A DNA stretch of 64,000 bases, taken from assembly GCF_030815955.1 (NCBI RefSeq), contig NZ_JAUSXK010000001.1:2914001-2978000 (forward strand), given 5' to 3'. The stretch comes from Microbacterium murale. GTDB taxonomy: Bacteria > Actinomycetota > Actinomycetes > Actinomycetales > Microbacteriaceae. The notes below the pieces were generated by a model. That model was not told where the DNA came from. It worked only from the letters and a program-made list of their open reading frames with translations, and did no database searches. The translations under genes and the position numbers were made by a program. Below, in pieces: positions 10,500-61,740 of the stretch (position 1 is the first letter of the stretch; every line of letters starts with the position of its first letter).

Positions 10500-10575
10500 G
10501 TGCTCCACGCTATGAGCGCGCCGTGCGCTGCGCTTCTTGATTCCTGCTCGATCGAGGGTCCGTAGGCGAGGCAGC

Positions 10576-11382: not shown

Positions 11383-11519
11383 GAAGACATCTTTAGCACA
11401 CCGGACTGGTCAACCCGGCACAGTCATGCAGAAAAATGCAAAGCCTGCCGGTGGCGACGTTCGTCGGCGCTCCCTTGGCTCTATCTCATCGTTAGGCCGA
11501 ACGACCACCATGATGCCAC

Positions 11520-11547
11520 TTGACGAAGTTGCATATCTCGGCATAAC
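11520..11547 (+). promoter_or_regulatory. Promoter of the sugar ABC/aldolase operon
   Basis: TTGACG (11520-11525) and CATAAC (11542-11547) are separated by 16 nt; TAACAT at 11544 with an 18-nt spacer is an alternative -10. The region is clearly more AT-rich than its surroundings. Confidence 0.5.
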
Positions 11548-11575
11548 ATCGCTTAAAACCGCATTAACAAGCATT
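11531..11575 (+). promoter_or_regulatory. Five phased 10-bp repeats, candidate DeoR-type operator
   Basis: Units beginning GCATATCTCG, GCATAACATC, GCTTAAAACC, GCATTAACAA and GCATT follow one another at exactly 10-bp steps (starts 11531, 11541, 11551, 11561, 11571). They overlap the -10 box and predicted transcription start. Direct repeats on one helix face suit oligomeric DeoR-family binding. Confidence 0.45.
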
Positions 11576-11613
11576 CAGCTGACGGTGCGGCACGATCTCG
11601 AAGAGGAGAAGTG

Positions 11614-12903
11614 ATGAGCACACAGCAACGGGGACACGCCCGACGAATCGTCAGCGCCACCACAGCGGCAGCAACGCTCATAGCGCTGGCCGGCTGCGCG
11701 CCCAGCGCCGGCAGCGACAACGCCGGTGACGGTGACGTGACGATCGAGTTCGCGCAGTGGTGGGAACCTGAGCTCCCCGACGGCGAGTTTCGCGCGTTGA
11801 TCGACGAGTTCGAGGATGCGAACCCTGGGATCACGGTCGATCTCGTGAGCGGGCCCTACGCCTCCACCAAGGAGCAGCTTTTCGCCGGGGCTGCATCCGG
11901 CACCATGCCCGACGTCGTGGGCCTTGACGGCGCCTGGGTGAACGATTTCGCCTCGCAGGGCGTCATCGCCGACCTGAGCGCGCTCATGGAGGAGTACGAC
12001 TACGACGACAGTGAACTGGCGAGCCAGATCCAGGTCGACGGCAGCACCTACATGATCCCCGTCGTGAACTTCGTCTACCCGATGTTCACGAACGACACCC
12101 TGCTGGCCGAGGCGGGCGTCACCGCGCCGCCGACCACCCGCACCGAGTTCGCGGATGCTGCCGCCAAGGTCTCCGCCCTCGGCGGCGATGCGTCCGGCTG
12201 GGTCCTCCCGCTTTCGCTCGAAGCGCCGAACGGCGTGCAGAACGATGTGATGTCGTGGGTCTGGGCCTCGGGAGGCTCGATGCTCAAGGACGGTCAGCCG
12301 GACCTGACGAACGACGAAGTCACCTCGGCTGTCGACTTCATCGGCGGCCTCTGGGACGACGGCTCGATCGCCTCCGGTTCCTTCACCATGAAGGAGCAGG
12401 ACAAGGTCGAGGAGTTCACCAACGGTCGTGTCGGCATGATGATCGACTCGCTCGCGCACATCAACCTGATCCGCGAGACGAACCCCGACCTGAAATTCTC
12501 GATCTCGGCGCTCCCCGCTGAAGACGGATACGACGGCGAACGCGGCATCCCGTACGCATCGTGGGGGATCGGCGTCGCAGAGAACTCCGAGAACAAGGAA
12601 GCCGCGTTCAAGCTCGTCGAGTTCCTGATGAGCGAGGACACCAACTCCGAGCTGTCGACCATGGCCAAGGCGTTCCCCGGCAACTCCAAGTCGGTGCCGG
12701 ACTTCGTGAACGACGATGAGCTGTTCAAGAAGGCCTTCGAGATCTACCAGGCGGGCTACCCGGCGAACGAGTTCACCGGACTTCCTGTCGCGGAAGAGCT
12801 GATGCGAGTGCTCGGCGAGCAGCTGCAGGCAGCTTTCGACGGACAGCAGTCGATCGACGATGCGCTGAAGAGGGCGCAGGACGCCTGGATGGCGGAGTTC
12901 TGA
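11614..12903 (+). CDS. Sugar ABC transporter substrate-binding lipoprotein
   Basis: The N-terminus has a charged start, a hydrophobic stretch and the lipobox LAGC (Cys about residue 28), so the protein should be lipid-anchored on the outer face of the membrane. The remainder has the extracellular solute-binding family 1 pattern: EFAQWWEPE early, AASGTMPDVVGLDG, and MPYASWGIGV-like spacing late in the chain. The ATG at 11614 is chosen because AGGAG lies 5 nt upstream; a GTG at 11611 is too close to that site. It is the first gene of an operon with two permeases, an aldolase, a kinase and an isomerase. The bound sugar is unknown. Confidence 0.9.
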   Translation: MSTQQRGHARRIVSATTAAATLIALAGCAPSAGSDNAGDGDVTIEFAQWWEPELPDGEFRALIDEFEDANPGITVDLVSGPYASTKEQLFAGAASGTMPDVVGLDGAWVNDFASQGVIADLSALMEEYDYDDSELASQIQVDGSTYMIPVVNFVYPMFTNDTLLAEAGVTAPPTTRTEFADAAAKVSALGGDASGWVLPLSLEAPNGVQNDVMSWVWASGGSMLKDGQPDLTNDEVTSAVDFIGGLWDDGSIASGSFTMKEQDKVEEFTNGRVGMMIDSLAHINLIRETNPDLKFSISALPAEDGYDGERGIPYASWGIGVAENSENKEAAFKLVEFLMSEDTNSELSTMAKAFPGNSKSVPDFVNDDELFKKAFEIYQAGYPANEFTGLPVAEELMRVLGEQLQAAFDGQQSIDDALKRAQDAWMAEF

Positions 12904-12926
12904 TCTCCTGCCTCCCCGCATGAACG

Positions 12927-12958
12927 GGGTGCCGCATCGCTGATGCGGTGCGGCACCC
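12927..12958 (+). other. Intercistronic mRNA hairpin after the binding-protein gene
   Basis: GGGTGCCGCATCGC pairs with GCGGTGCGGCACCC across the loop TGAT (14 positions, one mismatch). It lies 24 nt after the binding-protein stop and ends 25 nt before the permease start. Such hairpins often keep the binding-protein mRNA more abundant than downstream genes. Confidence 0.6.
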
Positions 12959-12983
12959 GACCAATCAAGGAGTACCGGTTCAC

Positions 12984-13907
12984 ATGAGCCTGAGAACGAC
13001 CGACGACACCGAGGTGATCGTCACCGGAGTCTCGTTGTCCCGTCGCCGACGGCAACTGCGCAAGACCACGGAGTCTTACGCCTTCCTCTCGCCGACGATG
13101 ATCCTGCTGTTCGTCCTGATGATCGTCCCGATCGTCATGGTGATCGGCTACTCGTTCCAGGACAATGTGATCCTGAACAAGTCGCCCGAGTTCGTCGGTA
13201 TCGCGAACTATGTCGAGATACTCTCGGACCCGGGCTTCTGGAAGGCCACGGGTAACACGATCCTGTTCACGGTCGCCAGCGTGGTCGCTCATCTCGTGCT
13301 CGGCCTCGGCTTCGCAATGATGCTGAACAGCCCCCTGCTCGGCGGCTTCGCGAGGTCGATCTTCCGAGCCCTCTACGTGCTGCCGTGGCTCTTCACCGTC
13401 GCGGTGATCGCCGTGCTGTGGCGCATGCTCCTCGCCCCCAACGGCGTCGTCAACTTCCTGCTCAACACCGACATCGAGTGGCTCGCCTCACCTCAGCTGG
13501 CGCTCGGCACGATCATCTTCATAAACATCTGGGCGGGGTACCCCTTCTTCATGGTCAGCCTGCTGGCCGGGCTCCAAGGCATCCCGAACGAACTCAACGA
13601 GGCAGCGACTGTCGACGGGGCCGGCGCTGTCCAGCGCTTCTGGAACGTCACCATCCCGCAGCTGCGGCCGATCATCGTCAGCCTCGTGCTGCTCGACCTG
13701 ATCTGGACTTCGCAGCAGTTCGCGCTCATCTGGATGACCACCGGCGGCGGTCCCATCGACGTCACTGAGGTGCTCAGTACCTTCACCTACAAGCTCGCCT
13801 TCGCCAAATACGACTTCTCACTCGCCGCGACGTCCGCAGTGCTGGTCCTTCTCATGTCGATGGTGCTCGCCGTGTTCTACGTGCGCCACCAGAAAGCGAG
13901 GGACTGA
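12984..13907 (+). CDS. Sugar ABC transporter permease, MalF type
   Basis: About 307 residues with six predicted membrane helices; the first (about 28-50) is rich in Ile, Val and Met. The EAA loop reads EAATVDGAGAVQRFWNVTIP, the contact site for the ATPase. The ATG at 12984 follows AAGGAG by 11 nt; an ATG at 12948 falls inside the intercistronic hairpin and is rejected. It forms the channel with the next gene. The importer has no ATPase gene here, so a shared MsiK-type ATPase is inferred. Confidence 0.9.
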   Translation: MSLRTTDDTEVIVTGVSLSRRRRQLRKTTESYAFLSPTMILLFVLMIVPIVMVIGYSFQDNVILNKSPEFVGIANYVEILSDPGFWKATGNTILFTVASVVAHLVLGLGFAMMLNSPLLGGFARSIFRALYVLPWLFTVAVIAVLWRMLLAPNGVVNFLLNTDIEWLASPQLALGTIIFINIWAGYPFFMVSLLAGLQGIPNELNEAATVDGAGAVQRFWNVTIPQLRPIIVSLVLLDLIWTSQQFALIWMTTGGGPIDVTEVLSTFTYKLAFAKYDFSLAATSAVLVLLMSMVLAVFYVRHQKARD

Positions 13908-48888: not shown

Positions 48889-49422
48889 TCACGACAGGAT
48901 CACGGCGCTCATCGCGACGGTGGAAGTCGCCATAGCGACGTGATGCAGACGATGACGCCACGACCGATGAGAGTGGAAGGCGGTCGCGGCGAAGGCCACT
49001 GACCCCAGTCCTACAGCGACGCATACGAAGACGGACATCGAGCCTGCGCTGCCGTGCGAGTGCGTTGCCGCGACGAGCAGTTCGGCGGAAGTCGTCGTCG
49101 GCATCAGCAGGATCAGGGTCGCGGTGACGACCAGCCCGAGCGCGAGGTGCGCAGAGAGGGGCACCGGTCCTGACGTTGCCTGTGCAGCGGCGGTGAGTGG
49201 CATGCGGCGACGTGCGACGGCAAGCGCGATCCCGGCTGTGACCATCAGCGCGAACCAGGCCACTGGAGCAAGAAGCGACACCGTCATCGCGTCTGCCATC
49301 CCGACCAGCATCAGCAGCGCGGCGGCCTTCTCAAGCCTGCCTGTCGCACGACGTGTGGTGCACAGCGCGCCCGCACCGACCGCGGCTGCTCCGAGCGCGC
49401 CGATGTGCAGGAGTTCGTTCAC
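48889..49422 (-). CDS. Small polytopic membrane protein with His-rich loops, unknown
   Basis: 177 residues with five to six hydrophobic segments. Two His clusters, ATHSHGSAG and [16 protein letters not shown], flank the fifth segment and could hold a metal; MVGMADAM-like Met/Asp residues lie in the second segment. No family recognised. The GTG at 49422 overlaps the C45 gene stop (GTGA). It is the last gene of the amine-oxidase operon, so a role in substrate or metal transport there is possible but unproven. Confidence 0.7.
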
Positions 49423-50504
49423 ACCGCGGCCGAGTCGACACTGATCCGACGCCATTCCACAGATCCCACATCGGCAGGAGCAGCGGAGGCGAAGGCCAGC
49501 GCAGCGCCGACCACGTCCAATGCGACTGTGAGTTTGGTCTCCCAGCGCAGATGCTCGGGCTGCTCCGGCCGTGCTCGAACCGAGATGGGTGCGTCGGGGA
49601 TCGCCCCGAATGCCAGCGCCCGCTCGCGGTCGTCGATGATCCGTGCCTGGTCCACGGCGTCGACCAGGCACTGATAGCGCGGCACGCTGGTCGTCTCGTA
49701 GGGCGAGTACTCGCGAGCGGCCAGCGCTTCATCGAGGAAGTGATTGGTGTGCGCCAGCGTGTGACCAGGGGACGTCTCGATCACCGCGACGCCCGCAGGT
49801 GCGACCTCGATTGCGGCGGCCGCCGGCGTGCGACCGTCGAATGTCGCGACGGTCAGCACGCTGGATGCTCCAAGGGGCGTGCTCCTGGCGATGTCGGCGG
49901 CGTCCTCGATGCTCCGAGCCCGGTCGAGGATCATCCGAGCGAGCACATGCACGGGAACGCCGGCCCGCGAGCCGTCCGAACGGTGGTGCAGGATGTTGAA
50001 GTGCAGGCCGAGGCCCCGGTCGTTGACGCCGATCTTGGCCGGCTGTCCGAATTCGCTGAAGGTGACGATTCCGGTTCCCCTTCGCGAGCGGAACCGGCGC
50101 ACCACGGTTTCGTTCGAGAGCGTCTCGTGCCAGTCCCAGGTCTGCAGCGTGCGCGGCGCGGTGCCGTCCGAGGGCACGTGCACGACAGTCGAGCATTCCA
50201 TCGACGGTGTCATCCGGGCGAGGATCTCGGTCCGTGCAGTGAGGAGATAGACGTCCGAAAGCGAGAGCCCACTTCCCTCTGCCATGCCCTGGAACTCCGC
50301 CGCGACCTCGGGCGCATGCACCTCGGTCTGAGTGCGACAGGCATCCGCGACATCGCGGGCCATGCTGTCCGGCACACCCGACTGTGCGAACAAGCGCAGG
50401 TAGGAATCTCGCGCCGCTGCGAGCTGCGGCGCCCAATGCCGGCCGAATCGCCTTCCCTCCTCGTGCTCGTCGTCGGTCAGAGCTGTCCACTCGTGGACGA
50501 TCAT
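49419..50504 (-). CDS. C45-family acyltransferase/amidohydrolase (isopenicillin N acyltransferase-like)
   Basis: 361 residues of the NTN-hydrolase C45 family: EFQGMAEGSGLSLSDVYLLTARTEI, then MECSTVV with the likely autocatalytic nucleophile Cys104, and TWDWHETL. Later FGQPAKIGVNDRGLGLHFNIL is also conserved. Members cleave or transfer acyl groups on amines. No signal peptide is seen, so it would act in the cytoplasm after uptake. It overlaps the PaiB gene and the membrane-protein gene by 4 nt each. Confidence 0.88.
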   Translation of the reverse strand: MIVHEWTALTDDEHEEGRRFGRHWAPQLAAARDSYLRLFAQSGVPDSMARDVADACRTQTEVHAPEVAAEFQGMAEGSGLSLSDVYLLTARTEILARMTPSMECSTVVHVPSDGTAPRTLQTWDWHETLSNETVVRRFRSRRGTGIVTFSEFGQPAKIGVNDRGLGLHFNILHHRSDGSRAGVPVHVLARMILDRARSIEDAADIARSTPLGASSVLTVATFDGRTPAAAAIEVAPAGVAVIETSPGHTLAHTNHFLDEALAAREYSPYETTSVPRYQCLVDAVDQARIIDDRERALAFGAIPDAPISVRARPEQPEHLRWETKLTVALDVVGAALAFASAAPADVGSVEWRRISVDSAAV

Positions 50505-51145
50505 TCATCTCCTCCGATGCGCTCGACGAGGGAAGCGACATCGCCGTACGGGCATCCGCGCGCGCGGGAGGCTTCCGCAACCCTCTGGCGCACGTCGCGG
50601 GGCTTGTCCTGGCTGACCTTGAACACCGCTCGCTGTTCTATGACGTCGAACCTGAAGGCCACGATTCCACCGACGATCCGCTCGAACGTCGGCAGCGAAC
50701 TCGTCATGTCCCACGCCGTCGGTTCCAGACTCTCGAGCTCATGTACGGTGCGGGCGACCACGTGCAATCCGTCCTCCGCGCTCTTGAGCACGGTGACCCG
50801 AGCTGTGAGGTGCACAGCCGCGTAGTCCCAAGTCGGGACGTTCGGATCATCCGCGTAGGTGGTCGGCGAGACGTAGCCGTGCGGTCCCGAGAAGACGATC
50901 AGCACCGACTCCCCATCGACGAGCTGCTGCCATTGCGGATTCTTGCGGGCGACGTGCCCGAGCATCTCGCCACCGACGAATCCGCCGTCGTCCGCCAGCC
51001 GCTCGATGATCACGGGAGTGTGAGTGACGGTCGGGGCACCCTGGGCGCCTCCGCCGTTGGAGACGATGAGTGCGAAAGGATGCCGACGCACCAATTCGTT
51101 CACCTCCTCCTGCGAAGGAGCGAGATATTTCTCGAACTCGTACAC
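50501..51145 (-). CDS. PaiB-like FMN-binding protein
   Basis: 214 residues matching the PaiB family: HPFALIVSNGG, TPVIIE, GEMLGHVARKNPQW, VLIVFSGPHGYVSPTTYAD and VPTWDYAAVHLTA. The split β-barrel probably binds FMN. In Bacillus PaiB is encoded with the polyamine acetyltransferase PaiA, an interesting link to amine metabolism here. GTG start, 2 nt after the peptidase stop. Confidence 0.88.
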   Translation of the reverse strand: MYEFEKYLAPSQEEVNELVRRHPFALIVSNGGGAQGAPTVTHTPVIIERLADDGGFVGGEMLGHVARKNPQWQQLVDGESVLIVFSGPHGYVSPTTYADDPNVPTWDYAAVHLTARVTVLKSAEDGLHVVARTVHELESLEPTAWDMTSSLPTFERIVGGIVAFRFDVIEQRAVFKVSQDKPRDVRQRVAEASRARGCPYGDVASLVERIGGDE

Positions 51146-51147
51146 GA

Positions 51148-52167
51148 TCAGCCGGCCGCGCAGAGGATGGCATCCCAGGCGGTCTCGCCGGCGAGGGTGG
51201 CCACTGCGGTGGAGTTCAACGACAGCCGACCCCGTGAGGTGCCGGGGTCGATCGGGAGGGCGATCTCGTCGGTCGTGAGCGCGAAGAGGGTGTCTCCGTC
51301 GAGCGATGTGTGGAACGGCTGGATGCCGCGGTGCATCGAACTGTGCACCTGCAATCCGAACTGCTTCAGCTCGACGTCGCTCAGCTGGACGTTCGTCACG
51401 ACGGCCGTGATGGTCGTGTTGCCCGCCATCGACTCGACGAGGCGCGACTCCGCGATCGCTTCCTCATAGTCGAGGGCGGGATGCCGGCGCGCTCCGGTGG
51501 TCTCGTCGAAGTTGCCGCGCACGATCCGTCCCTCACGGTCGATGATGACGCCATAAGGGTTGAGGACCGTCACGACGAGCACTTTCACATCGCCCACCTG
51601 GCGGAAGGCGACGCCCTGACCGGTGAACTCGATCCGGGCGGGGTCGACCTTTCCCGATGACGCGGCGGCGCCGCCGCCGACACGCCCCACTTCGACGACG
51701 CCGTCTCTCGCCGCGTTCAGGGCCGCCTTTCCGAGTGCGGTGTCGGGGAACACCGAGTTGTCGCGCACGGAGTAGTCGTAGATGATCGCGCCGGACACCA
51801 GTTGCAACTGATCGAAGCCCGACCGATATTCACCCCGCTCGAAGAGGGCTTCCGAGACTCCGGCGACGGCCGAGAGCCCGTACACGGATCCGCCGGCGAG
51901 GCAGATCGCGTGGTTGTAGCCGTAGAGGCCGCTGGCGCCGACAGCACCGCCTCGCCGATCGGTGAACGTCCTGGCACCGCCAGGGATCGACAGCACAGTC
52001 GCTCCGGTGGGCCCTTCGGCGTACTCGGCGGTTCCGAGCAGCACTCCGGGGAAGTCGTACGAGACCTGGCCGCGGTCAGTGCCGTGCACAGGAGTGAGAG
52101 CGAAGTCGCCGTTGGAGCGCCGCGGACCGGCAGGCAGGACGGGGGCGAGGCGGTGGGGGTCGGTCAC
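51148..52167 (-). CDS. P1-family peptidase (DmpA/β-peptidyl aminopeptidase type)
   Basis: 339 residues with the DmpA-like fold: GGARTFTDRRGGAVGASGLYG, LAGGSVYGLSAVAGV and the autoprocessing point at Asn250-Thr251 in GNTTITAVV, equal in place to Gly249-Ser250 of DmpA. The enzyme splits itself into α and β chains and removes N-terminal residues or cleaves β-peptides and amides. It overlaps the ATPase gene by 4 nt. Substrate unknown, but uptake by the adjacent peptide transporter fits. Confidence 0.88.
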   Translation of the reverse strand: MTDPHRLAPVLPAGPRRSNGDFALTPVHGTDRGQVSYDFPGVLLGTAEYAEGPTGATVLSIPGGARTFTDRRGGAVGASGLYGYNHAICLAGGSVYGLSAVAGVSEALFERGEYRSGFDQLQLVSGAIIYDYSVRDNSVFPDTALGKAALNAARDGVVEVGRVGGGAAASSGKVDPARIEFTGQGVAFRQVGDVKVLVVTVLNPYGVIIDREGRIVRGNFDETTGARRHPALDYEEAIAESRLVESMAGNTTITAVVTNVQLSDVELKQFGLQVHSSMHRGIQPFHTSLDGDTLFALTTDEIALPIDPGTSRGRLSLNSTAVATLAGETAWDAILCAAG

Positions 52168-52934
52168 GATGAGAGCTCCTGGAAGAGTTGGCGGGAATAC
52201 GGATGCTGGGGAAGGTCGTAGAAGACCTCGGTCGGGGCATGCTCGACGATCTCACCGGCGCGCATGACAGCCACCTGATGGGAGATGTAGCGGACCGCGG
52301 CGAGGTCGTGCGAGATGAAGAGAGCGGCGAAGCGGTGCTCGGCCTGCAGGTCCTGGATGAGATTCAGGATCTGCGCCTGAACGGAGACATCGAGCGCGCT
52401 GACCGCTTCGTCGAAGACGATGAACGCCGGGTGCGTGACGAGGGCGCGGGCGATGCTGACGCGCTGCAGCTGGCCACCGGAGAGCTGGTGGGGTCTTCGT
52501 GCGGCGAAGGAAGCGGGGAGTCCGACCTGATCGAGCATCGAGAGCGCGCGGGCTTCGGTGTCGGGCGTTCGGCGTTCATGCACGAGGAGCGGCTCGAGCA
52601 CTGAGGAGAGGATGGTCGAGCGCGGATCCAGCGCCCAGCGCGGGTGCTGCAGCACCGCCTGCATCCGGCCGGCGCGAGAACGCAGGCTCCGCGACAACGG
52701 AGCATCCTGGAATCTCACTGTGCCGGTGTCCGGTCTCTGAAGGCCCAGCACGACGGAGCCTGTCGTCGTCTTCCCCGATCCGGATTCGCCGACCAGTCCG
52801 AGCGTCTCGCCCGCTGTGACGGAGAGGGAGACGTGTGACATCGCCGTGACCTCTCTTCTGCTCGCGCCGAGGCCGGAGGTGAACGTGACGCTGACATCAT
52901 CGAGATCGAGGACGGGCGAGGTCGACTCGGTCAT
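52164..52934 (-). CDS. Peptide ABC transporter ATPase, DppF/OppF type
   Basis: 256 residues with Walker A GESGSGKTT (about 50), LSGGQLQRVSIARAL signature, and FDEAVSALDV Walker B/D-loop, then HDLAAVRYI switch. The short C-terminus lacks the oligopeptide tail of the partner ATPase. It overlaps both neighbours by 4 nt. Confidence 0.94.
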   Translation of the reverse strand: MTESTSPVLDLDDVSVTFTSGLGASRREVTAMSHVSLSVTAGETLGLVGESGSGKTTTGSVVLGLQRPDTGTVRFQDAPLSRSLRSRAGRMQAVLQHPRWALDPRSTILSSVLEPLLVHERRTPDTEARALSMLDQVGLPASFAARRPHQLSGGQLQRVSIARALVTHPAFIVFDEAVSALDVSVQAQILNLIQDLQAEHRFAALFISHDLAAVRYISHQVAVMRAGEIVEHAPTEVFYDLPQHPYSRQLFQELSS

Positions 52935-53908
52935 GCGGACACCTCTTTCGCACTGGTCGGCGCAGCGAGTTCTTCAGCGCGCAGACACAGGCTGTGCCGT
53001 GCTGTCATCGGCTGTGGACGGGTGCTTTCGCAGGCGTCGATCCGGAACGCGCAGCGTGCGGCGAAGGCGCACCCCTCGGATTCGCCGTACAGCACCGGGG
53101 GAGAGCCTGGAATGCTGCTCAAGCGCTCACCACGTTTCGCCCTGGACGGATCGGTTGCCGCGAGCGCGCGAGCATAGGGATGGACGGGGCTGCCGAGCAC
53201 CGCTCCCGCGGGTCCGCGTTCCACGACCCGCCCGGCGTACATCACTGCGACTTCGTCGCACCAGCGGGCGACAGCCGGCAGGTCATGGCTGAGCCACAGG
53301 ATCGTGGTGCCCGCGGAGCGCGCCTGCTCGAACATGAGCCGGATGACCTCTTCGCGCACCTGACTGTCCAGTGCGGCTGTCGGCTCGTCCGCGATCAGCA
53401 CCTTGGGACGTCGGCACATGGCCAGAGCCACGGCGACGCGCTGCGCCATTCCTCCGGAGATCTGATGCGGGAAGAGGCGTGCGACACGCTCGGGGTTCGC
53501 GATGAGCATCGCATCGAGCATCTCGAGCTGTCTGGCTTGTGTGCTGTCGTCACCGACGGAACGCAGCACGAGCTGAAGTTGCCTGCCGATGCGCATCGTC
53601 GGATCGAGCGAGCCGATCGGATCCTGGGCGATGTAAGCCAGGGCGTCCCTCCGGTAGTGCCGGAGGGCGGTGTCGTCCAGGCTCAGGACGTCGGTGCCGT
53701 CGACCTCCAGCTCGCCGCGCACGATCCGTGCAGAACGAGGGTGGAGCCGACCGATGACCGACGCGAGCGTCGATTTGCCCGATCCTGATTCGCCGACGAC
53801 AGCCACTGAACTGCCGGCGGCGACCTCCAGGTCCACTCCATCGAGTGCGCGCACCGTCGTCGCACCGGTGAACTCCAGTGCGAGGTCTCTGATTCGGATG
53901 GCGGTCAT
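52931..53908 (-). CDS. Peptide ABC transporter ATPase, DppD/OppD type
   Basis: 325 residues from ATG 53908 (overlapping the permease stop): Walker A GESGSGKST, ISGGMAQRVAVALAM, ADEPTAALD and the C-terminal oligopeptide-transporter tail (VHPYARALAATDP, CAFAARCAF with Cys residues that may bind an Fe-S cluster in this family). Confidence 0.94.
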   Translation of the reverse strand: MTAIRIRDLALEFTGATTVRALDGVDLEVAAGSSVAVVGESGSGKSTLASVIGRLHPRSARIVRGELEVDGTDVLSLDDTALRHYRRDALAYIAQDPIGSLDPTMRIGRQLQLVLRSVGDDSTQARQLEMLDAMLIANPERVARLFPHQISGGMAQRVAVALAMCRRPKVLIADEPTAALDSQVREEVIRLMFEQARSAGTTILWLSHDLPAVARWCDEVAVMYAGRVVERGPAGAVLGSPVHPYARALAATDPSRAKRGERLSSIPGSPPVLYGESEGCAFAARCAFRIDACESTRPQPMTARHSLCLRAEELAAPTSAKEVSA

Positions 53909-54789
53909 TTCAGAGACCTCGTCTCTCGCGGTTCGAAGCGGTCGCGCAATCCGTCGCCGATGATGTTGATGCACAGGATCGAGACCACCAGGACGGCACC
54001 GGGAACGATGAGCAGCTGCGGCGCCTGGGTCATGTACAGCATCCCCTGCTGGATGAGCAGTCCGAGCGAGGCCTCCGGGACCTGTACGCCGAATCCGAGG
54101 AAGCTCAGACCGCCCTCGACGAGGATGGCGACAGAGAGCGCATAACTCGCCTGAACGGCGATCGTGCCGGCGATGTTGGGCAGCAGTCGCCGCACGAAGA
54201 TCACGGGGGTGCGCACGCCGCTGATCCGTGCCGACACGATGAAGTCGCGCTCGGCGACGGAGCGGGTGGCGAGTCTCACCACGCGCGTCATGAGAGGGAT
54301 GGTGATGACGACGATGCTGATGATCGCTGCTGGGCGTCCTGGGCCGAGCGGGGCGGAGACGAGGATCGCGAGGACGAGAGCAGGAAAGGCGTACAGCACA
54401 TCCGCCACCCGCATGACCACCTCGTTCACGCCGCCGCCGTAGTAGCCGGACAGCATGCCCAGCAGGGTGCTGACCGCAGCGGAGCAGACGACTGCCACGA
54501 TCGAGACGACCAATGTCGTCGCGATGCCCTCGAAGAGGCGGGGCAGGAGAGAGCGGCCGAGGTTGTCCGTGCCCAGCGGCGCGAGCGCTGAGGCGCCCTC
54601 CAACCGACCGCCGATCGTCGCGCTCGTGGACCCGGTCACTCCGGTGAGCACCGCGATGACGGTCAGGACGACGATCGCGCCGAGCACGATGATCGCTGTG
54701 CGCAGCAGAGCGTCACTGTGTCGCCAGGCGCTCGTCGCCGTCTGGCCGGCAGCGCGGACACCATGGACGGCAGTGGGTGCGACGGTCAT
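53905..54789 (-). CDS. Peptide ABC transporter permease, DppC type
   Basis: 294 residues with about six helices, a long N-terminal tail and LGTDNLGRSLLPRLFEG-like sequence before the core. The C-terminus has LGFGVQVPEASLGLLIQQ, usual for DppC. Overlaps DppB by 4 nt. Confidence 0.94.
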   Translation of the reverse strand: MTVAPTAVHGVRAAGQTATSAWRHSDALLRTAIIVLGAIVVLTVIAVLTGVTGSTSATIGGRLEGASALAPLGTDNLGRSLLPRLFEGIATTLVVSIVAVVCSAAVSTLLGMLSGYYGGGVNEVVMRVADVLYAFPALVLAILVSAPLGPGRPAAIISIVVITIPLMTRVVRLATRSVAERDFIVSARISGVRTPVIFVRRLLPNIAGTIAVQASYALSVAILVEGGLSFLGFGVQVPEASLGLLIQQGMLYMTQAPQLLIVPGAVLVVSILCINIIGDGLRDRFEPRETRSLK

Positions 54790-55751
54790 CGGCTGCTCCC
54801 TCCGGTCAGGCGCAAGCGCGGATCCAGCGCGTTGGCGACGAGATCGACGATGAGGCTGGCGACGATGAAGACCATCGCGGCCAGCAGTACGGCGCTCTGA
54901 ACGATCGAATAGTCCCGGCGGCCGAGCGCCGTCTGAAGGTACGACCCCATCCCGGGGATGTTGAACACGAACTCGACGATCACCGTTCCTCCGAGCAGCA
55001 CCGCGACGAGCGCACCGACGATCGTGAGGATCGGCGCTGCGGCGTTGCGCAGAACATGATGTCGCACGATGAATCCCGGCGTCTCGCCGCGGGCGACGGC
55101 CGCCTGCACGTGAGGTTCTACGAGCACGTTCATCACCGCATCCCTGGTATTGCGGGCGACTACGGCGACGCAGCCGATCGACAAGACGACGACGGGGAGG
55201 ACGAGCGACCCGAAGAATCGTCCTGGATCGGTGGAGAACGCAGCGAACTGCCCTACTGAGAGGCCGAGTCCCAGAGTGGAGACCACGAACACCACAAGTC
55301 CGGCGAGCAGGAACTCCGGCAGGCTGATGCCCAGGGCGCTGACCAGTCGTCCGGCGGCCCCCGCGGAGCCTTCGCTGCGCAGCGCCGCGAGGAAGCCGAG
55401 TGGAATGCCGATCAGCAACGTGACGATGATCGTCAACAGGGCGATGGTCGCTGTGACCGGCAGACGTGCGGCGAACTCCTCCGAGACGGAGACGTTCGAG
55501 ACGAACGAGTAGCCCAGATCGCCGGTGACCACGCCGAAGACCCAGCGGAAGTACTGCTCCATCACCGGCGCATCCAGACCCGAATCGGCCACGGCCTGGG
55601 CCCGCTGCGCCTCGGTGGCGAGCGGACCCAGGACGAGGTCGATGTAGTCACCCGGCATGAGCCGCACTGATGCGAAGATCAGCACGGAGACCGCGATGAG
55701 CGTCACCAGTGCGGCGGCGATGCGCCGGATCGACCACAGAACCACGGACAT
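54786..55751 (-). CDS. Peptide ABC transporter permease, DppB type
   Basis: 321 residues with six helices: IRRIAAALVTLIAVSVLIF at the start, MPGDYIDLVLG, and ARNTRDAVMNVLVEPHVQAA before the EAA region. The final EFVFNIPGMGSYL is typical. Begins 1 nt after the binding protein stop. Confidence 0.95.
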   Translation of the reverse strand: MSVVLWSIRRIAAALVTLIAVSVLIFASVRLMPGDYIDLVLGPLATEAQRAQAVADSGLDAPVMEQYFRWVFGVVTGDLGYSFVSNVSVSEEFAARLPVTATIALLTIIVTLLIGIPLGFLAALRSEGSAGAAGRLVSALGISLPEFLLAGLVVFVVSTLGLGLSVGQFAAFSTDPGRFFGSLVLPVVVLSIGCVAVVARNTRDAVMNVLVEPHVQAAVARGETPGFIVRHHVLRNAAAPILTIVGALVAVLLGGTVIVEFVFNIPGMGSYLQTALGRRDYSIVQSAVLLAAMVFIVASLIVDLVANALDPRLRLTGGSSR

Positions 55752-55752
55752 G

Positions 55753-57363
55753 TCAGTTGGCGCGGAACTCGGTGACGTAGCGCAGGAAGTCGCCGTATCC
55801 CTCAGCGCTGGTCAGCGTGGGGGAGAGCGACTGAGTGTTCCATCCGATCGTCGACGGACGCAGCACCAACGGCACCATCTCGCTCTGCTCGTCCGCGAGG
55901 GCGCACAGGTCCTCGAAGACCGCCGCCCTGTCCGCACCTGGCTCAGTCGTGTAGCCGTCGGCGATGAGTGCGTCGAGCTCGTCGGAACCCTTCATGAACA
56001 CGGCGGAGAATCCGGCGACTTCGGGGTTCCACCAGGTCGTGACCATGGCGGGGTCGGCATATCCGGCGAACCAACTGAGCGCGAGATCGAAGTCCGCCGG
56101 ACTTTCGTACACGCGGGCCGAGTAGGTGGCGTAGTCGACCTGCTCGATCGAGACCGTGACACCGATCTCCGCGAGATTCTGCTGCATCACCTGGGCGATC
56201 TGCGCCAGCACCGGCTCGTCCGTGTAGACCACGAGGTCGAGTTCGAGCCCGCCGATCTTGTCGATCACTGCTTTCGCCGCGGTGACATCGTGAGCCGCGG
56301 AGGGGAGGTCCGCCGCCACGCACGCGTCCGGGAGGCCGGCAGGGGTGACACCTGATGCTTCGGTGGAGCCGCCGAATGCGAGTTCGTTGATCGCCGCGCG
56401 GTCGATGGCGCTGTTGATCGCGAAGCGCACGTCCTCGTCCTGCAGCGCCTCGTCACCGGTGAGGGAGTTGATCATCAGATAGTGGAAGTCGGTGTTCTTC
56501 TGTCCGACGACCGTCACATCGGCGGCATTCGAGAGCAGCTCAGCGGAGTCGATCGAGTTGAGCACGGCGAAGTCCGCCGAGCCGTCGCGGAGGGCGGCAG
56601 CGCGAGTGGCCTCGTCGCCGACGATGTCGATGGTGAGCGTGGCGAAGCCCAACGCGTCCGCATCAGGGTGGTGCTGGTTCGGCTCGAACGTCCACTCCTC
56701 GTCCTGACGATGTGCTGTCGCGACGAGAGGGCCGGTCCCGAGCATCTCGGTCGTGATGTCGACCTCGCCGGCGTCGATCTCCGCGATCGGGAGGATCGCT
56801 GCGGGAGTGTTCGCGAGCGCTGAGAGGAACGGCGCGTACGGCTCGGAGAGCGTGACTGTGACTTCGAGGTCGCCGGTCGCTTCGATCGAGGACACCGGGC
56901 CGAGTTGGCCAGTCCATGTCGTCGGTGTGTCGAGAAGGCGCTGAAGGCTCCCCACCACGTCGTCAGCGGTCATCGCCCGGCCGTTCGAGAAGACCGCGTC
57001 ACTGGCGAGGGTGAAGACGTACTCGGTGTCGCTCGGTGACTCCCAGCTCGTCGCGAGCTTCGGGGCGACTTCGAGGTTCTCGTCGATCGTGGTGAGGGTC
57101 TCGTAAGAGAGACCTTCGAGCATCCACGATCGGGCAGTCGCGGCGCCCTGGGGATCCAGACCACTGGCTTCTGCGGTGTCGTAGTCGAGCTGGACGACGA
57201 GGTCGCCGCCGGCATCGAAGGCGTCGTCAGCGACCGAGAGAAAGCCGGGCGCGGCCTCCTCCTGAGTCGGCGTGGCATCCGGGGAGGCGCCGGCGGCGCA
57301 TCCGGTGAGAGTGAGGGTTGCGATGGCGGCGATCGCCATCCCCGCTCGAGCTGCTTTGTGCAT
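55753..57363 (-). CDS. Peptide-type ABC transporter substrate-binding lipoprotein
   Basis: 536 residues: lipobox LTLTGC (Cys about 22), then family 5 binding-protein features LDPQGAATARSWMLEGLSYETL, YVFTLASDAVFSNGRAMTADDVV, and WFAGYADPAMVTTWW. It would capture peptides or amine-linked compounds at the cell surface. The ATG at 57363 follows AAGGG by 11 nt; the longer frame is overlapped by the amine oxidase end. Confidence 0.93.
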   Translation of the reverse strand: MHKAARAGMAIAAIATLTLTGCAAGASPDATPTQEEAAPGFLSVADDAFDAGGDLVVQLDYDTAEASGLDPQGAATARSWMLEGLSYETLTTIDENLEVAPKLATSWESPSDTEYVFTLASDAVFSNGRAMTADDVVGSLQRLLDTPTTWTGQLGPVSSIEATGDLEVTVTLSEPYAPFLSALANTPAAILPIAEIDAGEVDITTEMLGTGPLVATAHRQDEEWTFEPNQHHPDADALGFATLTIDIVGDEATRAAALRDGSADFAVLNSIDSAELLSNAADVTVVGQKNTDFHYLMINSLTGDEALQDEDVRFAINSAIDRAAINELAFGGSTEASGVTPAGLPDACVAADLPSAAHDVTAAKAVIDKIGGLELDLVVYTDEPVLAQIAQVMQQNLAEIGVTVSIEQVDYATYSARVYESPADFDLALSWFAGYADPAMVTTWWNPEVAGFSAVFMKGSDELDALIADGYTTEPGADRAAVFEDLCALADEQSEMVPLVLRPSTIGWNTQSLSPTLTSAEGYGDFLRYVTEFRAN

Positions 57364-57384
57364 TTCGGTGTTTCCCTTCGGGAT

Positions 57385-57417
57385 GTCGGCCGACGCGTGG
57401 ATCATGCGTCGGCCGAC
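57385..57417 (-). other. Intercistronic hairpin between amine oxidase and binding protein genes
   Basis: GTCGGCCGACGC and GCGTCGGCCGAC pair perfectly (12 bp) across a 9-nt loop, overlapping the last codons of the amine oxidase gene. It may protect or attenuate the downstream message. Confidence 0.6.
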
Positions 57418-59429
57418 GGCGGGCGGACAGAGAGGTGATGCAGGTGGTGCTCGGATGACGCAGAGCCTTTGTCCTCGTGAGCGCAGGCGCAGGCACTCGT
57501 GGATGCCGGAACGTCGAGGGTCGGGTTCCGATCGAAGAAGTCGTGAGGCTTGAGGGCGAAGCCGCAGATGTCGACCGGCATGATCGGCCAGTCTTCCGTG
57601 CGGGGGAAGTGGGTCAGCCCGAACGTGTGCCACAGGACCAGATCCGTGTTCTCCAGTGAGGCGTCGTCGGCGATGAATGCAGGCAGGCCCTGCTCCGGCG
57701 CGCTCTGATTGACGACGTCGCCCGCGGGGTAGCGTTCGTTCACGTCATACTCCGTGACCCAGAGGTCTGCGGTGGCGAATCGCGCGCGGGATGCGATCAC
57801 CGACTCCGGCTGTGCGAGCAGCACAGGCTTGCCCTCGGTGGCCAGCACATACGAGACGGGGCGCCCGAGGCGGTTCTTGGCATTCGTGCTGCTCACCCGC
57901 CAGGTGCGATCGACGGAGCTGTTCGCCCGGCGTCGACCCTCGTGTTCGCTCCGCAGCCGCGTGGCGGTGAAGCCGATGGCGCTGCCGTGCAGATTGTCGT
58001 CGTCGATAGGGAGCGCTCCGACGTCGATCTCGTCGATCACTGCGGTACCTTCGTCGACCGCCATATCGAGCCGAGCGCAGAAGAGGTGCTGGTGGTAAGG
58101 GGCGGCGAGGCCGGGTGCCAGCTCACTGGCGAAGCGACTCGTGCGCTCGTCGTACGCCGCGGTGAACACGAGGCCGGTCGCCTTGGCCTCGAACTCGATC
58201 TTCCCGTCGAGGTACAGGTACCAGTAGAACCCGTAGTCGTAGTTGCCGACCGTGACGAAGAACGAGATCACCAGACGTCGTTGGCGACGCACATCGCTCG
58301 TTCCGGTGAACTGCTCGGTGTGCTTCCACAGCACGCCGGCATCCTCCTCATGGATGCAGATGGCGTTCGGCAGGATCTTCACGTTCCCGAGGGCGTCGGC
58401 GATCGGCACATCGAGGTATGTGATGTCGCCCACGCAGTCGCAGCCGAGTTCGAGCGAGTTGACGAGCCGGCCGAGCAGGTACTCGCCGGTGTCGAAATAG
58501 TTCTGCCAGAACCGCACGGGCCCTGGATCGCCGTAGGGCACGAGCATCTCCGCGATGGATGCGCGGTGCACGATCGGGCGGACGCGGCCATCGTCTTCGA
58601 AACCGATGCCGTGCAGGATCAGACCCTCACGCATGTCGTAGCCGACGCGCAGCGACCATTTCTCCCAGGAGATCACGTCGCCGTCGAAGGAGAAGCTCGG
58701 GCCCTCTGGCTGGCTGATCACGATCGGCTTCTGCGTCGTCCGTTCCGGGCCGAACGTACCGGGCACGTGGTAATCCGCGGTCTCCTGGGGGATCGGCATG
58801 GCACCCGTGTCGATGACATCCACCACGCTGCGGCTGGCGAGGTCGACGAACGCGACGAGGCCGTCGATCGGATGCGCCCACGGCATCGTCAGGGGCGTGG
58901 GCTGGTGATGGCCGAGCACACGCGCCATGCGACGACCGCGTTCCCCTTCGATCGGGTAGCGACCGGCAGAGAGCCCTGCGAGAGCGACCGTGCTCGGGTC
59001 GTCGATTCCGCGAGCGAGGAGCGCGTCGGCCCAGCGCGCATCCGCCCCGACGAGCTCACGGATGATCGCATGCTCCTCCTGGAGCAGCGGAACCTGTCCA
59101 TCGAATTCTGCGTCGATCTCGTCATCGCGAGCGATCGTCGAAGTGCCGAGATCGACGGAGATCGCTCGAGCGAGGCCGCTCTCGATATCGAGGAGTTGGA
59201 TTCTGGCTCGACGGGCGACGGCGCGTCCCGCCGTGACCTCTCGACGATCGGGCTCGTCCAGGCCGATGTAGGCGATCCGGTGCGTTGCGGTGAGCGCGCC
59301 GTGTTGACGGAGGATCTCGGCGGCCAGTTCCAGTTCCGTCCCAGACAGCGTCGCGTAGGGAGCACCGGATCCGTCGCCGAGCGAGCGAGAGCGTTGGACG
59401 TGCTGTGACGAGGAACAGCTGCAGTTCAT
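57402..59429 (-). CDS. Copper-containing primary amine oxidase (TPQ type)
   Basis: 675 residues. The topaquinone precursor is Tyr397 in VGNYDYGF. The catalytic base lies in YFDTGEYLLG. Copper ligands are HQH (HQHLFCARLDM) and the later His in HTFGLTHFPRTEDW. The enzyme oxidises primary amines to aldehydes with release of ammonia and H2O2. No signal peptide is seen. The ATG at 59429 has GGAG 5 nt upstream. Both ends carry unusual Cys/His stretches: NCSCSSSQH at the start and SACACAHED with EHHLHH at the end. First gene of the ten-gene operon. Confidence 0.93.
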   Translation of the reverse strand: MNCSCSSSQHVQRSRSLGDGSGAPYATLSGTELELAAEILRQHGALTATHRIAYIGLDEPDRREVTAGRAVARRARIQLLDIESGLARAISVDLGTSTIARDDEIDAEFDGQVPLLQEEHAIIRELVGADARWADALLARGIDDPSTVALAGLSAGRYPIEGERGRRMARVLGHHQPTPLTMPWAHPIDGLVAFVDLASRSVVDVIDTGAMPIPQETADYHVPGTFGPERTTQKPIVISQPEGPSFSFDGDVISWEKWSLRVGYDMREGLILHGIGFEDDGRVRPIVHRASIAEMLVPYGDPGPVRFWQNYFDTGEYLLGRLVNSLELGCDCVGDITYLDVPIADALGNVKILPNAICIHEEDAGVLWKHTEQFTGTSDVRRQRRLVISFFVTVGNYDYGFYWYLYLDGKIEFEAKATGLVFTAAYDERTSRFASELAPGLAAPYHQHLFCARLDMAVDEGTAVIDEIDVGALPIDDDNLHGSAIGFTATRLRSEHEGRRRANSSVDRTWRVSSTNAKNRLGRPVSYVLATEGKPVLLAQPESVIASRARFATADLWVTEYDVNERYPAGDVVNQSAPEQGLPAFIADDASLENTDLVLWHTFGLTHFPRTEDWPIMPVDICGFALKPHDFFDRNPTLDVPASTSACACAHEDKGSASSEHHLHHLSVRPPSADA

Positions 59430-59466
59430 GAATTCTCCGTTGGAAGTCTGATCGGAACGCCTACGT

Positions 59467-59482
59467 GCCGGAACGTTCCGGC
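59467..59482. promoter_or_regulatory. Perfect 16-bp palindrome, candidate LacI-family operator
   Basis: GCCGGAACGTTCCGGC is its own complement with a central CG in AACGTT, the core pattern of LacI/GalR operators. It spans the predicted start of the amine-oxidase operon and lies 88 bp before the LacI-type gene. Confidence 0.65.
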
Positions 59483-59485
59483 AAA

Positions 59486-59569: not shown

Positions 59570-60592
59570 ATGCATGAGACAAGGCGCGCCCGATTGATCG
59601 ATGTCGCTCGGCGAGCCGGTGTCGGAAAGACCACCGCTTCGGACGCGCTCAGCGGGAGCGGTCGAGTGTCATCCGAGACCCGCGACGCGGTGCTGGCGGC
59701 TGCGGCGGAGCTCGGCTATTCCGCGAACACAGCCGCGCGGCACCTGCGCGGCGGAACCGTCGGCACCATCGGGATCGTCCTCCCCGAGGTCGTCTCGCGG
59801 TCGTCGTATTACATGGCGTTCACATTCGGCATCGTCACCAGCGCCGCGGCCCACGATATCGACGTGACCATCGTCAGCCCGTCGACGTCATCCGGGCGGT
59901 CGCGGCCGATCCGCGCCGACGGCCTCATCATCGGGGATCCGCTCTCGGGTGATACCGGCCTTCCGGCGCTCCTCGCCTCTGGTATGCCGGTCGTCACGCA
60001 AGAGCACCTGCCTGACGACATCGCCGGCACCGCTGACGGCGTCGTCTGGTCATCCCACGAGACCGGAATGCTGCGCCTGTTCGACGAGATCGACATCACC
60101 GGCGCACAGCATCCGGCGCTGTTGGTCGCACCAGACGTCACCGACTGGTCTCGACAGCTGGTCAGCGGGTACAGGGCGGGTTGCGCCGCACGAGGCCTGA
60201 CGCCGCTGCTCGCTCCCGTCAGCTTCGAGGCGCCGTGGCTCGCAGTCCGTGAGGCGATCGAGCGGCTGCTCTCCGAACACCCTGAGACCGATGCGATCAT
60301 CTGCGCACCGGACTCGAGCGCCATCGAGGTCGTCGCCGTGCTCGGCAGGCTCGGCCGGACCATCGGCGAGGACATCACCGTCGTCTCCTGCGTCGATCAT
60401 CCATCTCTGCCGTTCCTGGCGCCGGCGATCACCTCGATCGATCTCCGCCCGAGGGAATCCGGCGTCGCATGCGCCGAACTGCTCATCGACCTGCTCGAGG
60501 GGCGCGCCGAACCAGGAACGGACGTCGAGTTCCCGATCACCGTCGTCGCACGCGAGTCCACTGCGCACCCGTTGACGGCTCGTGCCGCGTGA
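59570..60592 (+). CDS. LacI-family transcriptional regulator
   Basis: 340 residues with the LacI helix-turn-helix and hinge at about 7-60 (RLIDVARRAGVGKTTASDALSGSGRV, ELGYSANTAARHLRG) and a periplasmic-binding-like effector domain (TIGIVLPEV, DGLIIGDPL, DITVVSCVDHP). It probably controls the divergent amine-oxidase operon through the palindrome and its own operon with the CoA-transferase gene. The effector is unknown. Confidence 0.92.
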   Translation: MHETRRARLIDVARRAGVGKTTASDALSGSGRVSSETRDAVLAAAAELGYSANTAARHLRGGTVGTIGIVLPEVVSRSSYYMAFTFGIVTSAAAHDIDVTIVSPSTSSGRSRPIRADGLIIGDPLSGDTGLPALLASGMPVVTQEHLPDDIAGTADGVVWSSHETGMLRLFDEIDITGAQHPALLVAPDVTDWSRQLVSGYRAGCAARGLTPLLAPVSFEAPWLAVREAIERLLSEHPETDAIICAPDSSAIEVVAVLGRLGRTIGEDITVVSCVDHPSLPFLAPAITSIDLRPRESGVACAELLIDLLEGRAEPGTDVEFPITVVARESTAHPLTARAA

Positions 60593-61740
60593 GCGCTCCG
60601 CTGGACGGCGTCGTCGTCGCAGACTTCTCTCGCGTTCTGGCGGGCCCGCTGGCCACGATGACGCTCGCCGATCTCGGTGCGCGGGTCATCAAGATCGAGC
60701 GTCCTGGTTCCGGCGACGACACCCGTGCCTGGGGGCCGCCGTACGCCGAATCGGGGATGACGACGTATTTCGAGTCCGCGAACCGCGGGAAGGAGTCCAT
60801 CGCGCTGGATCTCACAGCGGACGCCGACCGGGAGCGCGCGCACGCGATCATCGCTCGCAGCGACATCGTGATCGAGAACTTCCGTCCAGGACTCTTCGAG
60901 CGTCTGGGGTTCGGATGGGACAGCCTCAGCGACCTTCATCCTCGGCTCGTGTACGTCTCGGTCAGCGGATTCGGCCTCGACGAGGGCGCCTCGCTGCCCG
61001 GCTACGACTTCGTCGCGCAAGCCGTCGGCGGCCTGATGCACATCACTGGCGAGGCGGACGGAGAGGCCATGAAAGCGGGGGTGGCACTCGTCGACGTACT
61101 CACCGGCAAGGATGCTGTGATCGGCATCCTCGCGGCACTCCGTCGTCGCGAGGCGACGGGAAGAGGATCTCGCATCGACGTGAACCTGCTCTCGAGCCTG
61201 CAGGCTGCGCTGGTCAATCAGGTCTCCGCGCATCTCGGTGCAGGGGCGGAACCGGTACGGCTCGGAAACCGCCACCCCTCGATCGCACCGTACGAGGTTC
61301 TGCGCTGCGCTGATGGGCCGGTGGCAGTCGCATGCGGCAACGACGCGCAGTTCGCCAGGCTCGCCGACGAGCTCGGCCGGCCAGAGCTCGCCGCGGACCC
61401 GCGGTTCCTGCACAACCCTGATCGTGTCGCACGCCGTGAGGATCTTGTCGCCGAGTTGGAGAGAGCGCTCGCCACGGGCACGGCGGCTGCATGGGCAGAT
61501 CGTCTGAACCTGGTCGGCGTCGCCGCAGGCGAGGTCAACTCCATCGGTGACGGCATCGCGCTGGCCGAGCGTCTCGGGCTCGATCCCTTGCTGGAGACGC
61601 TGGGAGCAGACGGGCGACGATCGCGTCAGATCCGCTCACCACTGTCATGGACGCCGCGACTGCCCGTGAGCGTGGCCGCTCCGCCTCGCCTTGGCGAACA
61701 CGACTCGCGGGTGCGCGACTGGCTGGACGGCACCGACTAA
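60589..61740 (+). CDS. CaiB/BaiF-family CoA-transferase
   Basis: 383 residues (GTG overlapping the LacI stop): VVVADFSRVLAGPLATMTLADLGARVIKIE at the start, ENFRPGLFERLGFGWDSL, YVSVSGFG and the catalytic Asp169 in ALVDVLTGKD, the same number as in formyl-CoA transferase. It moves CoA between carboxylic acids. Its coupling to the regulator suggests it activates or recycles an acid from the same pathway. Confidence 0.92.
   Translation: MSAPLDGVVVADFSRVLAGPLATMTLADLGARVIKIERPGSGDDTRAWGPPYAESGMTTYFESANRGKESIALDLTADADRERAHAIIARSDIVIENFRPGLFERLGFGWDSLSDLHPRLVYVSVSGFGLDEGASLPGYDFVAQAVGGLMHITGEADGEAMKAGVALVDVLTGKDAVIGILAALRRREATGRGSRIDVNLLSSLQAALVNQVSAHLGAGAEPVRLGNRHPSIAPYEVLRCADGPVAVACGNDAQFARLADELGRPELAADPRFLHNPDRVARREDLVAELERALATGTAAAWADRLNLVGVAAGEVNSIGDGIALAERLGLDPLLETLGADGRRSRQIRSPLSWTPRLPVSVAAPPRLGEHDSRVRDWLDGTD

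Follow-up and report, generated by a model that had tools for sequence, protein, structure and literature searches.

The stretch analyzed here, referred to as the window, comprises 64,000 nucleotides (nt) of the Microbacterium murale genome (contig NZ_JAUSXK010000001.1, positions 2,914,001 to 2,978,000) and contains an operon of ten co-directional open reading frames (ORFs) that runs on the minus strand from 59429 down to 48889. Together with the genes next to it, this operon probably serves the uptake and full catabolism of hydroxamate siderophores built from N-hydroxycadaverine. The Pfam domains of its products comprise Cu_amine_oxid, SBP_bac_5, two BPD_transp_1, two ABC_tran, Peptidase_S58, FMN_bind_2 and AAT, and the genes are as follows:

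57402..59429, minus strand: copper amine oxidase (CuAO) of the AGAO type; PF01179, 482 bits; NF008559, 807 bits (cut-off 651)
55753..57363, minus strand: solute-binding protein (SBP) of the importer, SBP_bac_5 family; PF00496, 211 bits; lipobox recognized by eye
54786..55751, minus strand: DppB-type permease; PF00528, PF19300
53905..54789, minus strand: DppC-type permease; PF00528
52931..53908, minus strand: DppD-type ATPase; PF00005, PF08352
52164..52934, minus strand: DppF-type ATPase; PF00005
51148..52167, minus strand: NylC-family amide hydrolase, proposed siderophore endo-amidase; 430 bits to the NylC structure 5xyt
50501..51145, minus strand: NohD-type protein with a PaiB fold, proposed heme N-hydroxylamine dehydratase; PF04299, 136 bits
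49419..50504, minus strand: C45-family autoproteolytic hydrolase, proposed second amidase; NF040521, 208 bits (cut-off 85)
48889..49422, minus strand: His-containing membrane protein of 177 residues, accessory

An earlier note on this DNA had described a ten-gene operon with these limits and tight coupling at its nine junctions, and the ORF layout confirms both. Six junctions are 4-nt overlaps (DppB/DppC, DppC/DppD, DppD/DppF, DppF/NylC, NohD-type protein/C45 and C45/membrane protein), and the remaining three are gaps of 38 nt (CuAO/SBP), 1 nt (SBP/DppB) and 2 nt (NylC/NohD-type protein), the first of which turns into an overlap if an alternative ATG at 57405 is used. The order LacI|CuAO-SBP-DppBCDF-NylC-PaiB-C45 recurs in 14 of 15 loci from the same genus, with genome G447 carrying a different version, and this recurrence of the block from CuAO to C45 places the coupling above chance.

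The loci compared stem from 15 of the 17 other Microbacterium genomes with a NylC homolog (G221 and G406 were left out), 11 further genomes and one Nonomuraea record. Counted at an E value of 1e-80 in overlapping samples that each included the M. murale genome itself, NylC homologs were found in 18 of 295 genomes at the level of the genus, 3 of 199 for the family, 3 of 396 for the order, 8 of 394 for the class and 2 of 396 for the phylum. All ten named loci with a close NylC relative belong to Microbacterium, and several of them appear to repeat genomes already sampled. Fifteen diverse loci (L034-L039 and L061-L069) served for comparison beyond the closest relatives; the neighborhood extends over several families and is not limited to this strain, a restriction that the earlier note had named as an argument against its proposal. 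A plasmid search returned three records, namely that of Nonomuraea (L069) and two from Variovorax with 43-44% identity. One of the Variovorax plasmids (L070, 4680-12933) encodes a NylC-like protein (43%), a second P1 peptidase, an importer of the same class and an RpiR regulator, a gene context that differs from that of the operon, and the other (L071) gave matches to the importer and NylC alone.

Central to the interpretation is the enzyme first described as a P1 peptidase. According to the printed match line, it is identical in 204 of 330 residues (~62%) to the structure of NylC, the 6-aminohexanoate-oligomer endohydrolase of the S58/P1 family. For NylC, the Asn266/Thr267 pair, Lys189 and Asn219 have been named (PMC6021441). 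Counterparts of this autocleavage pair, and of the Lys and Asn presumed to act in catalysis, are found in all 26 sequences compared, which come from 22 loci and the window. Judged by this similarity and by its Asn/Thr site with the accompanying Lys and Asn, the window protein is a member of the NylC family. In a tree, the crystallized nylonase NylC is itself placed among the operon proteins (support 0.83), so that the cleavage of nylon may be no more than a side reaction. The window homolog differs from NylC in its setting, a regulated operon shared with enzymes for N-O bonds and C5 diamines, and its proposed natural substrate would be a siderophore, not nylon. The high identity might also reflect a recently acquired pathway for xenobiotic nylon-6 oligomers. 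However, this explanation appears very improbable, given that the C6 monomer would require an adipate route rather than glutaryl-CoA, that the proteins have diverged across several families and that a Microbacterium NylC, not necessarily a close relative of that in the window, is the poorest of the NylC-type enzymes on the test substrate N4NB among the results given in PMC10858056. Three loci (L034, L038 and L064) carry tandem pairs of NylC paralogs that form two separate clades in the tree, perhaps providing one enzyme per bond type.

The neighboring gene was initially considered PaiB-like, with a link to polyamines, an assignment that its closest relatives do not bear out. Among PDB chains, its product reaches 171 bits to NohD (9oqs), 145 bits to a piperazate synthase (9ebk) and 114-137 bits to chains named FMN-binding protein or regulator, with PaiB scoring lowest at 62 bits. 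Similarly, blastp against NohD gives 166 bits for the operon protein and 88 and 96 bits for the two other PF04299 copies in the genome. Polyamine regulation via PaiB was rejected on the basis of these two sets of scores. Identity to NohD amounts to 50% for the window protein, 85% for the copy in L065 and 77% for that in L069 (Nonomuraea), both of which are encoded between NylC and C45. The heme of piperazate synthases has an axial His ligand, His-61 in SbPZS (PMC13274692), and a candidate heme-ligand His, matched to it by eye, is present in 15 of 15 NohD-type proteins. Its similarity to NohD, which exceeds that of the paralogs, and the conserved His identify the window protein as NohD type. 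The genome contains 26 SBP_bac_5 genes over the cut-off and three PF04299 genes, and only one such pair lies less than 5 kb apart, which is the one in this operon.

Among the 15 diverse loci, a NohD-type gene is found in seven (L035, L036, L037, L061, L063, L065 and L069), whereas three (L034, L038 and L064) carry a MOSC fusion in its place and five (L039, L062, L066, L067 and L068) have neither. The MOSC proteins of L034 and L064 additionally contain Fer2 domains, and the L038 copy is 45% identical to that of L034. N-hydroxylated compounds are substrates of mARC/YcbX-type MOSC reductases (PMC10637980, PMC3831636), so that such genes make sense where NohD is absent. The likeness to these reductases, including the combination of MOSC and Fer2, concerns the relatives' loci and not the window, and the activity there is predicted. 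The presence of NohD or, as a substitute, a MOSC-type reductase implies that the substrate contains an N-O bond. It is scarcely credible that the NohD-type enzyme instead belongs to a cluster for the biosynthesis or tailoring of a natural product: piperazate synthases are indeed the next relatives after NohD, but the annotated neighbors include no synthetase and comprise an importer and degradation-type genes.

Two further enzymes complete the catabolic part of the operon. The C45 protein, whose model score and nucleophile Cys, kept within the ECST motif in 21 of 21 sequences, mark it as an autoproteolytic hydrolase, perhaps acts on the hydroxamate bond. In L035 (14790-16860), FAD monooxygenase-like, EthD-like and flavin-reductase-like genes, labeled by eye, directly follow the C45 gene. 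The CuAO reaches 725 bits to the phenylethylamine oxidase of Arthrobacter (1rjo), and the motifs for its topaquinone (TPQ) cofactor, copper-binding His residues and Asp base are conserved (NYDY, FDTGEY and HQH in 16/16 and THFPR in 15/16 sequences), so its sequence is of the AGAO type. Inspection by eye revealed no evident signal peptide in this protein. Its N-terminus (59400-59429) carries a Met-x-Cys-x-Cys motif that recurs in the relatives' upstream ends, and its C-terminus (57402-57504) a Cys/His-rich tail (CACAHED..EHHLHH); both are possibly there for copper.

The last gene of the operon encodes the membrane protein, which matched no model in Pfam or NCBIfam. A comparable transmembrane ORF follows C45 in eight of nine Microbacterium loci, the exception being L008, which stops at that point, and in none of seven loci outside the genus, on which grounds we class the protein as accessory. 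Having been missed by tblastn in several loci, it was at one point taken for a non-member of the operon, a view overturned by these eight ORFs. The protein is predicted to be helical by a model that is too weak to support a fold search (mean predicted local distance difference test score, 64). It is fast-evolving, with invariant His residues and 43-54% identity to six Microbacterium relatives.

The functional unit exceeds the ten genes and further includes a divergent LacI-CaiB pair, PucR and a GabT-GCDH-ALDH set that continues beyond the window end (locus L083):

59466..59483, between CuAO and LacI: 18-bp perfect palindrome TGCCGGAACGTTCCGGCA, proposed LacI operator
59570..60592, plus strand: LacI-family regulator, encoded divergently from the operon (start set by eye); PF00356, PF13377
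60589..61740, plus strand: CaiB-type CoA-transferase, proposed succinyl-CoA:glutarate CoA-transferase; PF02515, 372 bits
61737..63107, minus strand: PucR-type regulator; PF07905, PF13556
63163..64000, plus strand: GabT-like aminotransferase, truncated at the window end and with an assumed start; PF00202
L083 4464-5684, beyond the window end: glutaryl-CoA dehydrogenase (GCDH)-like gene; 508 bits to 3swo, 372 bits to 1sir
L083 5681-7129, beyond the window end: aldehyde dehydrogenase (ALDH) gene

All of these genes, from LacI to ALDH, stand beside the operon in 15 of 15 extended relatives (14 Microbacterium and G1352), with the PucR homolog in the same place each time, and a LacI homolog was seen in every one of the 15 diverse loci but L066. 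CaiB and the GCDH-like gene occur together in all 21 CuAO loci in which that flank is covered (the window, the 15 extended loci and L065-L069), which makes a C5 diamine the most likely amine. Within the 14-60 kb searched, the GCDH-like gene was found in none of the seven loci without CuAO (L034, L035, L038, L039, L061, L062 and L064). A C5 diamine would need the GCDH route, whereas the C6 monomer of nylon would not. The closest solved relatives of the GCDH-like protein are glutaryl-CoA dehydrogenases, as also for the copy in L067 (584 bits to 3sf6). GabT-, ALDH-, CaiB- and GCDH-like genes are likewise those of the degradation of cadaverine to glutaryl-CoA, with the difference that here they are linked to importer, NylC and NohD-type genes. 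Farther downstream (L083 7095-13418) lie two ABC half-transporters and a Peripla_BP_2/FecE/FecCD set that is closest to F420-0/B12 models. The latter (10469-13418) is absent from this position in the 15 extended relatives according to tblastn, apart from one or two weak ATPase hits; for both reasons, these genes were discarded as evidence for a siderophore.

The 16-bp core of the palindrome between CuAO and LacI does not vary across the 13 intergenic regions that were aligned and is also present in L065, L067, L068 and L069; the single-contig M. murale genome of 4.1 Mb contains it only once in exact form. A scan of 14 relatives' genomes with an 18-bp degenerate pattern, allowing at most one mismatch, returned 21 sites, against none for the backward control. 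Eleven of the genomes have sites in their clusters, 16 in all. L034 and L064 carry two operator copies between the divergent MOSC gene and the SBP gene, and L038 has two and a weak one. Two operator hits fall within predicted ORFs (G028:2300090 and G1002:6949113) and were taken as chance. A PepSY_TM ORF of G028, remote from the main cluster, has an unmismatched site (L126 6093) 100 bp upstream; as the encoded protein has no credible PDB relative, we do not claim it as a siderophore reductase.

A connection to iron emerges from two of the diverse loci, L039 and L062, which represent two families and combine a FepB-type SBP and a SIP-type protein with LacI and NylC. The assignments are based on domains in L062 (FepB-type PF01497; SIP PF08021 and PF04954) and, in L039, on a FecCD domain (PF01032) and on similarity for FepB and SIP (56 and 39%). 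The 8.1-Mb genome with L062 has a single unmismatched match to the operator pattern, which begins 56 bp ahead of the FepB ORF; after it comes a sequence that agrees with a DtxR-type iron box at 16 of 19 positions. L039 shows a weaker palindrome and a 15/19 iron box between FecCD and FepB. The boxes were scored against what we take to be the consensus, and matches of at least 14/19 to it occur elsewhere at 0.22 per 20 kb. At the same threshold and with the same assumed consensus, the window has no iron box, which fits a nutrient-induced rather than an iron-regulated system.

In desferrioxamine, units of succinate and N-hydroxycadaverine alternate to form a linear or cyclic polyamide, which chemically resembles a nylon with N-OH groups. 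The parts of the operon and of its neighborhood appear to match the activities required for its complete use, namely an endo-amidase, a second amidase, an enzyme for N-hydroxylamines, amine oxidation and a C5 route. We therefore consider N-hydroxycadaverine hydroxamate siderophores, with desferrioxamine as the likeliest, to be the probable substrates, at a probability of roughly 0.7. This reading draws on the observed gene content, its conservation, the catalytic residues, the conserved operator and the siderophore-uptake neighbors in two relatives. In the proposed pathway, the SBP_bac_5/DppBCDF importer would take in the iron-free siderophore, whose internal amides would be cut by the NylC-family N-terminal nucleophile (Ntn) hydrolase; jointly with C45, this enzyme would free succinate or acetate and N-hydroxycadaverine. 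The NohD-type heme enzyme may then dehydrate the hydroxylamine to an imine, which would hydrolyze to the aldehyde, while in other lineages a MOSC-type reductase would turn the hydroxylamine into the amine. CuAO and GabT would take off the remaining amine, ALDH would yield glutarate, CaiB glutaryl-CoA and GCDH crotonyl-CoA, with LacI presumably repressing the operon from the conserved palindrome. The host genome has no match to the synthetase family PF04183 (IucA/IucC), so that M. murale would feed on the siderophores of others.

The outline suggested by the earlier note, comprising import, hydrolysis and oxidation of an amide-linked amine, agrees with this pathway, but its candidate amines do not. 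An importer, two Ntn-type hydrolases and an amine oxidase would also suit amide- or peptide-linked amines without an N-O bond, such as N-acyl polyamines and γ-glutamyl or β-alanyl amines. We regard such substrates as quite improbable, because they leave the alternation of NohD and MOSC, the GCDH-like route and the neighboring FepB and SIP genes unexplained; N-acyl polyamines, γ-glutamyl amines and histamine conjugates account for neither the C5 route nor the N-O enzymes. The same catabolic logic might apply to another siderophore based on an N-hydroxy-diamine, e.g. bisucaberin or arthrobactin, the latter consisting of citrate amides of N-acetyl-N-hydroxycadaverine. The C5 route and the N-O enzymes suit any N-hydroxycadaverine siderophore, but a nylon-like endo-amidase would best suit the internal succinyl-cadaverine amides of desferrioxamine, making this alternative unlikely.

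Several observations weigh against desferrioxamine catabolism. L066-L068 lack an N-O enzyme within the 20 kb covered. The nearest CuAO presumably prefers aromatic amines, and the functions of CuAO and GabT look partly redundant. In the window genome, CaiB, GabT and GCDH all stay under the NCBIfam cut-offs, so that we infer their exact substrates: CaiB, searched as 60586-61740 and thus longer by one codon, reaches 321 bits with its best model, NF052585 (succinate--glutarate CoA-transferase; cut-off 750); the GabT-like protein reaches 585 bits with NF004714 (cut-off 639), its L067 counterpart lying above its own cut-off; and the GCDH-like protein gives 193 bits with NF045552 (cut-off 470), which is exceeded by its scores for FadE-type (239 bits) and acryloyl-CoA reductase (214 bits) models, yet these in turn lie below their own cut-offs. 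As to the operator, allowing up to two mismatches in the M. murale genome gives six sites for the palindrome and five for the backward control, which leaves the exact site as the informative one. Moreover, 5 of the 21 sites in the relatives lie outside the clusters; G1352 and G1411 have sites elsewhere only (G1352:7193495 and G1411:C28), and G694 has none. The palindrome of L039 has four mismatches, and mononucleotide shuffles produce 0.85 such hits per 64 kb. L039 and L062 also lack an operator site in the gap between LacI and NylC, and their NylC proteins are among the more distant ones (56 and 51% identity). As the FecCD/Peripla_BP_2 genes of the M. murale genome are F420-0/B12-like and not conserved, it is on these two loci that the link to siderophore uptake rests.

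Bacteria have previously been reported to use the iron-free desferrioxamine DFOB as a carbon source by hydrolyzing its amides (PMC10866069, PMC11800396). In the accounts given there, Azospirillum and Mesorhizobium loti degrade desferrioxamine and leave the hydroxamates intact, and for M. loti the enzyme is described as a serine protease. The system proposed here resembles these activities in the amide hydrolysis of the apo-siderophore for carbon, but whereas those accounts describe them without genes and with intact hydroxamates, ours is predicted from its genes. Our searches of the open-licence PMC literature returned no paper that gives genes for desferrioxamine hydrolysis or links nylonases such as NylC, or the other genes found here, to siderophores and their catabolism. 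On balance, and with somewhat less assurance than for the pathway as such, we favor the broader view that NylC-family nylonases are by origin amidases of hydroxamate siderophores and that the cluster encodes the entire pathway for feeding on siderophores, with either the heme dehydratase NohD or, in other lineages, a molybdenum MOSC-type reductase of the same LacI regulon removing the N-O bond.

If correct, this interpretation would provide the genes for bacterial growth on desferrioxamine, an activity described decades ago, and explain what the nylon hydrolases, a family studied for plastic recycling, do in nature. It would also give NohD-type enzymes a physiological role, and bacterial MOSC reductases a new one. 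Finally, the cluster would offer a marker for tracing siderophore consumers in soil communities.

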